Source of the DNA: a virus
Length of the DNA: 38,409 bases
Reading direction: 5' to 3' (one strand)
IMG/VR virus record: IMGVR_UViG_3300038307_000159
Span: 1-38,409 of that record
Part shown: in pieces, positions 5,131 through 9,799 of the stretch
Position numbering within the stretch: position 1 is the first letter of the stretch
How the letters are laid out: each line of letters starts with the position of its first letter
Notes under the pieces: model-generated
Told to the model about the DNA's origin: nothing
Databases searched by the model: none
What the model saw: only the letters and a program-made list of their open reading frames with translations
Position numbers and translations under genes: made by a program

Positions 5131-5910
5131 TTAATTATGCAATCTTTCTCTATTTTCCTTAATTCGCTTTCTACCTATTTCACAATACTCAGCTTCTTGT
5201 TCAATACATATCCAGTTTCGTTTAAGGTTGTCGCAAGCCACAGCTGTTGTAAATGAGCCAGCACAATTATCCAAAACTAAATCTCCTTCGTTGGTATAAG
5301 TCTTAATTAGGTATTCCATCAGGGCTACTGGTTTTTGGGTTGGGTGAAGTTTTCCTTTCTGTGAAGCATTACTGATTTTTATTTCTTGGTCAGGGTAAAA
5401 ATCAGTGTACTCACCACCAGTAGCCTTTAGAGTCCCATATACTTGGTTTCCGTCACCTTTATATACTTTATCTCTCGGCTTATCTTTTCTTACTCTTCCT
5501 CTATCCTCCATTTGAGGTTTATATAAACATTGATTACTATAAAAAATCATTATATCTTCATATTTTCGTAAAGGTTGTTTTTTTGCATTTAAATGCCCAG
5601 TAGCTTTTACTTTATTCCACAACCAAGAATACTTAAACATCTTAGGATTACTCATCACCAAAGCACTTGTAAAGGGTTGTGAAGCTGTCAGAACTATTGC
5701 TCCGTTATCCTTGATTATCCTTTTGTATTGTTCCCATAATGGCTCAAAAGGTATTACAGTATCCCATTTGCAAGCAGTAGTTCCGTATAGTTAAGGAAGG
5801 TCTGCCAAAATCATATCAACTGATTTATCAGCGATATTTTTCATTTCAACAAGGCATTCTCCTTGTATCAATTCAAATTTTGGCAAACCTTCATTTGTTT
5901 TGTTTATCAT
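5131..5910 (-). pseudogene. N4/N6 DNA methyltransferase interrupted by an in-frame stop at its catalytic motif
   Basis: Reading from the ATG at 5910, codons 1-39 give the N-terminus of a beta-class DNA methyltransferase ending in ADLP. Codon 40 is TAA and 41 is CTA, after which the same frame resumes with YGTTACKWD. Deleting the six bases TAACTA would restore the catalytic DLPY motif. The rest is intact: HPTQKPVALMEYLI and the SAM motif VLDNCAGSFTTAV near the end. The start overlaps the HNH stop as ATGA. Either the enzyme is dead, or a fragment is made from an internal start around 5661, or the stop is bypassed. Confidence 0.75.
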
Positions 5911-6523: not shown

Positions 6524-6604
6524 CGGACTGATTGAGATTTGAACTCATATCTTATAAAGTCCCAATGGGAGTTTTATATATGTTACCAGTTACACCACCA
6601 GTCC
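6524..6604 (-). tRNA. tRNA-like gene with an abnormal anticodon arm
   Basis: Several parts are standard. The 7-bp acceptor stem is GGACTGG with TCAGTCC, the D arm is GTGTAACTGGTAACAT, and the T loop GTTCAAATC has a 4-bp stem. No CCA is encoded. The anticodon arm is wrong for a normal tRNA: TATAAA/TTTATA closes a 14-base loop (ACTCCCATTGGGAC) that can itself fold as TCCC/GGGA. The total of 81 bases is about 8 too long. An anticodon cannot be assigned with confidence (CCC or TGG are readable). It could be a degenerate tRNA, a decoy, or one with a small insertion. It abuts the stop of the upstream gene. Confidence 0.6.
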
Positions 6605-6862: not shown

Positions 6863-7178
6863 CTTTATAGTTGTTAATAATCTTATCTAATTACGCTTTT
6901 AGCTTCAACACAGTATCTTTAAACATATCTTTAAGCTGTGGCACACCTTCTAATAAGAGTTTTTCTTCATTACTCATATATTTTATATTCTCTAGATGAT
7001 TTCTCCACCGCTCCTCATCTTTCACAATAGATACATAGAAGCTGGGGTTGATTATTCCTCTTCTTACCATTACAGGGTTTTTACCGACAATTCCTTTTAA
7101 GATGTTCGGTAGTTCATCAGCGTCAATCTGTATGTTGTCTCCTCTACTCATTATTATTTTATAGGGTTTGTTTTGCAT
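6863..7178 (-). repeat. direct repeat copy A flanking the C5 methyltransferase module
   Basis: About 316 bp, from CTTTATAGTTGTTAATAATC through the whole 95-aa gene, is repeated at 8201-8499 in the same orientation at high identity. The region between is the methyltransferase plus three small genes. Confidence 0.75.
6891..7178 (-). CDS. duplicated protein of unknown function, copy A (95 aa)
   Basis: It encodes MQNKPYKIIMSRGDNIQIDA and is closely similar along its whole length to the protein at 8221-8499; the main difference is a short stretch near residues 66-76. No membrane segment or catalytic motif is seen. The compact pattern (IMSRGD, VRRGIINPSFYVSIV) looks like a small alpha/beta domain. 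It overlaps the end of the C5 methyltransferase gene by 25 bases. Function unknown. Confidence 0.7.
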   Translation of the reverse strand: MQNKPYKIIMSRGDNIQIDADELPNILKGIVGKNPVMVRRGIINPSFYVSIVKDEERWRNHLENIKYMSNEEKLLLEGVPQLKDMFKDTVLKLKA

Positions 7179-7786
7179 ATTGATTTTAATACGTGTAATC
7201 CCAATTCAGGACTGACACAATTTCTTAATACTTGTCTTTTGTTTTTTATTTTATACTCACTTAAATCATAACCATAGAGTTTTTGTAGGTCAGGTATTTG
7301 TGCGGTTCGTATCTTGTCCTTTGTGAATTCTTTGTCGGGTATGTCAAAATTAGACCAAAATAAATGTCGCTGTAACAACTTTCCTTCAATCAGGGGCTTG
7401 TAGTATGGTTTAACATTTTCCACAACCCACTTACCCTCAAAGTGGTGTTTTAAAAATAATATTTCTTCGTACAAAGTCATATCAGGATAAACTGGTTCTG
7501 TTCCTCTGTAACGGACACAGATGTTATGTCTAAATGATGAATGTGTCTGACAAGGTGGACTACTCCAAATAAAGTCAAACTCTTTATAATGTTCCAGTAG
7601 ATACTGATGTGCATCACCGACAACAACTTCGTCATTAGGAAAAATGTTCTGATATATCTTTGCAAGCACAGGGTCATTTTCAATAGCAGTTACTTTAAAC
7701 TGATTATCAATATCAAATAACTCTTTCCACTTTTTTCTATTTCCTCCTATTCCTGCGTATAAATTTAATATTTTAAATGTTTTCAT
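7154..7786 (-). CDS. C5-cytosine DNA methyltransferase
   Basis: Residues 7-16 LNLYAGIGGN form SAM motif I, PPCQ at 77-80 supplies the catalytic cysteine C79, ENV is at 123-125, RHLFWSNF follows, and NCVSPELGLHVL near the end is motif X. At 210 aa it is short for the family, with a minimal target-recognition region between motifs VIII and X. Phage versions usually protect DNA from restriction. It starts in an ATGA overlap with a small gene upstream. Confidence 0.9.
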   Translation of the reverse strand: MKTFKILNLYAGIGGNRKKWKELFDIDNQFKVTAIENDPVLAKIYQNIFPNDEVVVGDAHQYLLEHYKEFDFIWSSPPCQTHSSFRHNICVRYRGTEPVYPDMTLYEEILFLKHHFEGKWVVENVKPYYKPLIEGKLLQRHLFWSNFDIPDKEFTKDKIRTAQIPDLQKLYGYDLSEYKIKNKRQVLRNCVSPELGLHVLKSICKTNPIK

Positions 7787-8992: not shown

Positions 8993-9661
8993 TTAATTTA
9001 ATCCTATAATCTCCTTCTTCTTACTTTTAATCTCTAGTGCTTTACGCCTAGCCCAGCTTTGGAGTGTGGCGTAGTGGGACTTGTACCTTTTACCTTTTGA
9101 GGCGATGTAAGTATCTAACTCAAAGATTAACCCTTTAACGTTATCTTCTCCCATAAGGTCAATTAACTTCGTGTATTCGTTTGGAGTTAATTTAACGTTA
9201 TTAAATTCACCGTACGACACTTTGTCTGTCTTAACTTTACTTAACTTAACCTTACCTAACCTAACCTTACTTAAGCCGTCCGTGGACTGTCCACCTAATC
9301 TTTTACTATTATCTTCAACATCTGTGCGGGGTTTTGCCTTAAGTAAGGCTATATTTTCGGGAATTAGATGTTTGTAAATACTATCCACTTTTCTATCTGC
9401 TCGGATTGAATTATGCTCAAGCCAATTATTTATTAGCATTACTTGGTCTTCATTTAATTGGACTATAAATTCTTTTGTTAGGAGGATTTTAATTATGTCA
9501 GAAGCTGTGCCGAGAGTTCGTGTTATTGGGTAGACTTCCACCACACCGTCATCATCTGCGTTGAGTATCAAATGAAAATACAAAGCTTGTGCCTCTAAAG
9601 GCATCTGTAGAAACTTTGCCGACCTTGCTATTCTATTTGAGAACATTCTACGATTTGCCAT
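8993..9661 (-). CDS. replication-initiator-like protein (DnaD/O-type winged helix)
   Basis: From the ATG at 9661 (MANRRMFSNRIARSAKFLQM) the first ~110 residues match the winged-helix pattern of phage replisome organisers: ALYFHLILNADDDGVVEVYP, then LTKEFI and INNWLEHNSIR. The C-terminal part is lysine-rich and ends in a helical domain (YKSHYATLQSWARRK), typical of such initiators, which bind origin DNA and recruit the helicase. An earlier start at 9694 lies within a stem of the leader and is less likely. No strong Shine-Dalgarno is present. Confidence 0.65.
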   Translation of the reverse strand: MANRRMFSNRIARSAKFLQMPLEAQALYFHLILNADDDGVVEVYPITRTLGTASDIIKILLTKEFIVQLNEDQVMLINNWLEHNSIRADRKVDSIYKHLIPENIALLKAKPRTDVEDNSKRLGGQSTDGLSKVRLGKVKLSKVKTDKVSYGEFNNVKLTPNEYTKLIDLMGEDNVKGLIFELDTYIASKGKRYKSHYATLQSWARRKALEIKSKKKEIIGLN

Positions 9662-9675
9662 ATTTACACACTTAA

Positions 9676-9763
9676 AAAGTCCACCGATTTGCAAAAACTC
9701 GTAAGAATTTTATCGGAGGACTTTGTAAATTTATAAATATATCTCTTACGTTAAGTTTTTGCA
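9676..9763 (-). promoter_or_regulatory. initiator-gene leader with two interleaved stems (pseudoknot or switch)
   Basis: In the minus-strand RNA, arm B1 (9763-9744) pairs with B2 (9706-9690) over 17 bp with a 3-base bulge. Arm A1 (9724-9712) pairs with A2 (9688-9676) over 12 of 13 positions. The order along the RNA is B1, A1, B2, A2, so the stems interleave: either a pseudoknot or two mutually exclusive folds. B1 begins about where transcription should start. A2 lies 14 bases before the ATG. This could control initiator translation or act as replication-origin DNA. Confidence 0.65.
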
Positions 9764-9770
9764 TACTCTA

Positions 9771-9799
9771 AGACTACCAAATAGGACTCAACCTGTCAA
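9771..9799 (-). promoter_or_regulatory. sigma70-type promoter for the initiator gene
   Basis: The minus strand reads TTGACA (9799-9794), a 17-base spacer, then TAGTCT (9776-9771). The -35 is consensus and the -10 matches three of six positions. The predicted start is near 9764, at the first base of the structured leader. Confidence 0.6.

Follow-up and report, generated by a model that had tools for sequence, protein, structure and literature searches.

The initiator gene and its leader

The window, by which we mean the whole stretch of DNA analyzed, is a virus record of 38,409 bases that carries a terminase gene. A gene for a DnaD-like helicase loader, akin to replication genes in many Firmicutes phages, lies on its minus strand downstream of four interleaved arms (Table 1). 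The profile matches of its product thus bear out the expectation that the arms precede a replication initiator. Among 379 genomes of Patescibacteria, the initiator is present in two. Shine-Dalgarno (SD) sequences are nearly absent from the genes of the window as a whole, which have A/T-rich sequence ahead of their starts. By their sequence, these SD-poor starts suggest a host with SD-independent initiation. The rules for promoters and terminators used below are assumed to apply to the window phage. An alternative genetic code brought no clear gain for the long genes of the window. A tRNA at 6524-6604 (minus strand) has an Rfam match of 42 bits and is not reported by ARAGORN. Four open reading frames (ORFs; 367-951, 2281-2799, 5131-5661, and 7154-7786) have partial matches only, to DNA methyltransferase families, and may be split or decayed genes.

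The four arms are found on the minus strand where the original prediction had placed them, and both stems have the extent that it gave them. B1 and B2 pair as helices of 10 and 7 bp, with the bulge on the B1 side, A1 and A2 pair at 12 of 13 positions, and A2 ends 14 nt before the ATG of the initiator gene at 9661 (minus strand). A version of A1:A2 with longer arms of 29 nt (83%) extends almost up to this ATG. As read from the sequence, A1:A2, its 23-nt loop, and UUUUU together are the form of an intrinsic terminator, a feature that the original prediction had missed. The U-run is short (5 U). The -10 element of a sigma70-type promoter ends 7 nt ahead of B1, placing B1 about at the expected transcription start, that is, at or near the predicted 5' end of the RNA and much as had been proposed. 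Since the promoter lies upstream of B1, a transcript that starts from TTGACA-17-TAGTCT must cross the terminator before it enters the initiator gene.

Table 1. Features of the initiator gene and its leader in the window.
Feature	Position	Strand	Basis or remarks
Sigma70-type promoter, TTGACA-17-TAGTCT, drives the leader	9771..9799	-	score P = 0.01 against shuffles; similar position in relatives
Candidate 30-codon leader ORF, MQKLNVRDIFINLQSPPIKFLRVFANRWTF*, starts in B1 and stops in the U-run	9672..9764	-	direct reading; length P = 0.083 against shuffles; weak
B1, 5' half of the antiterminator-like helix, TGCAAAAACT-TAA-CGTAAGA	9744..9763	-	pairs with B2 over 17 bp, bulge of 3 nt
A1, 5' arm of the terminator stem, AAAGTCCTCCGAT	9712..9724	-	pairs with A2 at 12 of 13 positions; energy of the stem -19.2 kcal/mol
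B2, complement of B1, within the 23-nt terminator loop	9690..9706	-	pairing of the loop with upstream sequence, P = 0.010 versus shuffles of the latter
A2, 3' arm of the terminator stem, ATCGGTGGACTTT	9676..9688	-	pairs with A1
U-run (TTTTT) of the intrinsic terminator	9674..9678	-	direct reading and terminator detection
DnaD-like helicase loader / replication initiator gene, 222 aa	8993..9661	-	phrog_8489 E = 1e-40, phrog_5708 E = 1e-39; without Shine-Dalgarno sequence

Predicted folding and a putative attenuator

The 111-nt leader has a predicted folding energy of -29.6 kcal/mol (z = -4.5), and none of 200 shuffled sequences is as stable. The best interleaved pair of stems in the 160-nt leader is likewise stronger than in any of 200 shuffles (z = -4.8). 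Across the 38-kb window as a whole, chance is expected to give about one interleaved pair of such strength; the arm site is among the top five of the window, shuffled windows give similar totals, and the opposite strand pairs nearly as well. Because of this chance level, the sequence of the window alone does not prove function, and the case for it rests on the position of the arms and on the relatives. A scan of the whole window for terminator loops was also tried and was too permissive for use.

Minimum-energy folds of the growing RNA, computed from position 9768 with nested folding only and with kinetics and protein ignored, predict an order of events. B1:B2 forms once B2 is complete (-16.9 kcal/mol at 9690) and is still the minimum at 9680 (-18.3 kcal/mol). 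A1:A2 takes over only at 9678-9676 (-18.8 to -20.6 kcal/mol), when A2 is nearly complete. The predicted states thus lie a few kcal/mol apart, as expected of a poised switch. The original prediction held that the RNA must either choose between the stems or form a pseudoknot. Competition between the stems agrees with these energies, whereas a pseudoknot is less likely in the window, since B2 is followed by A2 after 1 nt: by the geometry of pseudoknots, a third loop of that length could not span a helix of 10-17 bp, and the full helices would exclude each other on these geometric grounds although they have no bases in common.

As the two stems are a terminator and an antiterminator-like helix, control is likely to act at the level of transcription termination. 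Taking sequence, predicted energies, and relatives together, we consider it fairly probable that the leader of this phage DnaD-like initiator gene holds a transcription attenuator. Transcription would begin at or beside B1, and in the emerging RNA B1 would capture B2 first. The B1:B2 helix would then keep A1 from pairing with A2, which is held off because B2 is only 1 nt away, and polymerase would read through into the initiator gene. When B1 is occupied or B1:B2 fails, A1:A2 would form with the U-run next to it, and transcription would stop ahead of the gene. The arms, the promoter, the form of the terminator, the competition by predicted energies, and the conserved architecture are supported by sequence; that transcripts do terminate in vivo, with B1:B2 as the state that allows read-through, is our inference.

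A terminated RNA holds both B1 and B2, and it could thus act on new transcripts as its own antisense and report the number of genomes. More tentatively, then, terminated leaders might accumulate, the B2 in their loop might occupy the B1 of new transcripts, and gene dosage might in this way shut the initiator down, a possibility we regard as doubtful. If it is true, the concentration of the leader would report the number of phage genomes and turn the initiator off, in the manner of copy-number or superinfection sensing. Superinfection immunity or incompatibility would then follow from a private and fast-changing pairing code, with neither a repressor protein nor a second promoter, and a promoter, self-pairing, and a terminator would be simple parts for dosage-sensing gene control.

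Leaders of related initiator genes

A direct protein scan of viral contigs gave no close relative, and alignment was needed to find relatives. Profile searches yielded 500 viral and bacterial loci, which reduce to 210 distinct, non-redundant leaders. A terminator lies 1-75 nt before the initiator gene in 39 of the 210. Strong terminators (stem energy ≤ -16; n = 26) were subjected to a U-run-based loop test with controls. Ten of these 26 initiator-abutting terminators are preceded by a segment that is complementary to their loop or 5' arm (P ≤ 0.05), compared with 7.4% of 351 other terminators of the same loci, a fivefold enrichment (Fisher P = 3e-5, Mann-Whitney P = 7e-6). Sense promoters are significant in 12 of 21 leaders. 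Two related phages, L153 and L158, have proteins that are 92% identical and leaders with no detectable DNA similarity; neither passes the loop test. Judging from sequence comparison, the architecture of the switch appears to be kept among relatives while the arm sequences turn over almost completely, as a dial for phage replication would lead one to expect. Since the pairing words differ between phages with nearly the same initiators, they may define compatibility groups.

The device is found in uncultivated phages with Firmicutes-phage-like initiators and in a Patescibacteria metagenome-assembled genome (MAG). It is absent from most SD-type homologues, in which the initiator gene sits within an operon. 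On inspection, a comparable leader was not seen in Enterococcus phage Efs 1-1-1, Streptococcus phage Javan64, Lactobacillus prophage Lj928, or Hujiaoplasma phage zrk29-2. In Lactococcus phage r1t (L009, 560-800), the gap that precedes the initiator is about 229 nt long and contains a terminator with a weak upstream complement (P = 0.09). A 53-kb IMG/VR contig, 2895183075_000002 (L084/L424 and L422), carries two DnaD-like initiator genes, and a terminator closely precedes the start codon of each. In the window and 20 related loci, only tRNAs reach the Rfam gathering score, and 10 loci gave no Rfam match at E ≤ 0.5. A search of plasmids for DNA similarity to the leader found none.

The best match in a bacterial genome is the Patescibacteria MAG contig (L224), at 65% over the N-terminus of the initiator. 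The order of elements is TTGACA-16-TATACT, TGCAACA...TACGA, a terminator with TCGTA...TGTTGCA in its loop, and a U-run, which stands 105 nt upstream of the start of the matched gene. Here too B1:B2 is predicted to form first and the terminator to win once complete. Another relative, L022, has the same design with a loop pairing of 10 bp (P = 0.07 on its own). The word TATGCAA[AC]A opens B1 in the window, L022, and L224, and stands just ahead of B1 in L180. Two phages close to the window (L013 and L016) have strong interleaved stems about 100 nt before the initiator and no U-run; control at some level other than termination is possible in them. L012 has neither interleaved stems nor a terminator just upstream of the initiator gene. 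Thus the device is not universal even in the clade of the window.

The original prediction had named covariation in related phages as a check, and compensatory changes of the arms were found. Between L390 and L355, four base pairs have double changes, two in each helix, and in the outer B1:B2 helix the window and the MAG contig differ by one compensatory change, A-U to C-G. The covariation statistics come mainly from a family, F1, that is distant in sequence from the window and was found by a pattern scan for terminator-SD-gene junctions. F1 is a structured RNA at the start of DnaD-like initiator genes, with no Rfam match and nine distinct leaders (L513, L517, L520, L523, L527, L528, L530, L536, and L538). 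The loop of its 5' hairpin reads UUGNNG and is complementary to CNNCAA within the terminator, which has inner hairpins; covariation is strong for this loop-loop pairing. The whole structure is 92.3% paired over the nine leaders against 78.1% in shuffles, with a covariation score of 0.434 (0.173 shuffled; ≤ 0.10 with slid partners). The loop-loop helix alone is 98.1% paired and scores 0.481 against 0.134.

A second crossing pairing in F1, which would join the stretch directly 5' of the terminator to the loop of the inner hairpin, is visible by eye but only suggestive, as the aligned core hardly varies. In F1 a co-existing pseudoknot is plausible, with the loop pairing alongside the terminator, and the sign of the switch could be on or off. 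The covariance model of F1 matches a leader of another branch (L170) at E = 1e-4, and this match ends at the gene start. One further member (L518, 3649-3761, minus strand) has part of the 5' arm of the terminator missing and the 3' arm kept; it reflects either misassembly or a terminator that is broken in this phage.

Alternative readings and comparison with known systems

The alternative that survives best, and that we still consider rather unlikely, is attenuation by a leader peptide. A ribosome on the 30-codon ORF, starting from the AUG in B1, would keep A1 or A2 open and so permit read-through, and B1:B2 would hide the start codon. The ORF (9764-9672) runs across the terminator and ends in its U-run, its start context is like that of other start codons in the window phage, and ATGCAACAA stands at the same place in L022 and L224, the other clade members with the device. 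Four more leaders (L387, L362, L159, and L286) likewise have ORFs across the stem. Against this, the length of the ORF is marginal in the window (Table 1) and reaches P ≤ 0.1 in 9 of 29 leaders, the peptides have only MQ in common, and such an ORF is missing from F1 and from other leaders; it is not a general feature.

It is improbable that control is exerted by a countertranscript from the opposite strand that binds B1 and triggers the terminator, as in the plasmids pT181 and pIP501 or ColIb-P9. The type of gene and the layout of the switch are as in those plasmids, the UUGGCG word of the ColIb-P9 target loop occurs in F1 loops, and a weak promoter-like match on the plus strand, TTGAGA-16-CATATT, lies within the gene start. 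That match, however, has P = 0.09 in a consensus scan. By the same kind of scan, antisense promoters are significant in 2 of 21 leaders, roughly as many as chance would give, and the contrast with the sense promoters argues against a plasmid-style countertranscript.

We give equally little credence to an ordinary terminator or to chance, that is, to A1:A2 simply ending upstream transcription and B1:B2 being accidental in an A+T-rich leader. The expected chance occurrence of interleaved stems once per 38 kb would allow this, as would an upstream gene in the same direction. On the other side, the promoter lies between that gene and the terminator, the stem is just 14 nt from the ATG, loop-upstream complementarity is enriched fivefold over other terminators, and the pairing is kept by compensatory change in relatives. 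That the interleaved inverted repeats are initiator-binding sites or part of an origin, also proposed originally, fits their place beside the initiator gene and the almost equal pairing of the opposite strand, but is very improbable, as neither leader nor gene has iterons (direct repeats), B1 and B2 have no further copies anywhere in the genome, the arm sequences turn over fully with pairing kept, and U-runs and promoters occur on one strand only.

A transcription attenuator is thus the reading we compare with known systems. RNA control of initiator genes is textbook knowledge for plasmids, and the design in the window resembles the copy-number-type control of an initiator that had been suggested for it. 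Text searches of the non-subscription literature turned up no description of a leader of this kind for phages whose initiators are DnaD-like. As in pT181 and pIP501, the initiator lies directly downstream, and the leader terminator has a competing upstream pairing, which in the window is predicted from sequence and energies. The DnaD-like helicase loader is of another initiator family than those of the plasmids. Unlike the plasmid arrangement, B2 of the window sits in the loop 3' of A1, adjoining the 3' arm, and not in the 5' arm, and no countertranscript promoter is evident in the window by the consensus scan. In pT181 repC and pIP501 repR, the leader terminator of the initiator gene is blocked by upstream pairing, in which the antiterminator ties up the 5' arm of the terminator stem; the switch is thrown by an antisense RNA (PMC4878617, PMC8383071).

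In ColIb-P9 repZ (IncI-alpha), a target loop pairs upstream of the initiator gene to form a pseudoknot, which controls translation and is acted on by the Inc antisense RNA (PMC8383071). The motif of this target loop is UUGGCG, according to a title in the references of PMC10724649. One F1 member (L523) has UUGGCG together with its partner CGCCAA, perhaps since such loops pair fast. The F1 hairpin loop pairs near the gene start, as in repZ, whereas B1 of the window is not clearly a hairpin loop. As regards the translated leader peptide of repZ, the clade of the window has a candidate ORF of marginal length and F1 has none. Unlike in ColIb-P9, the partner here lies inside the terminator of a phage gene, and significant antisense promoters were not found.

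Termination in the satellite phage P4 is Rho-dependent. The CI RNA immunity of P4 limits replication genes by premature termination, and a small leader RNA pairs with the same leader from which it comes (PMC4825925). The likeness, drawn by logic only, is an RNA-directed limit on phage replication genes; P4 differs in relying on a processed RNA with two target sites. Since the promoter scan for an antisense RNA was negative, and since the antiterminator contact differs, the leader of the window is not filed in the pT181 or ColIb-P9 classes; in the model presented here, it would nevertheless work like the attenuator of a rep gene.
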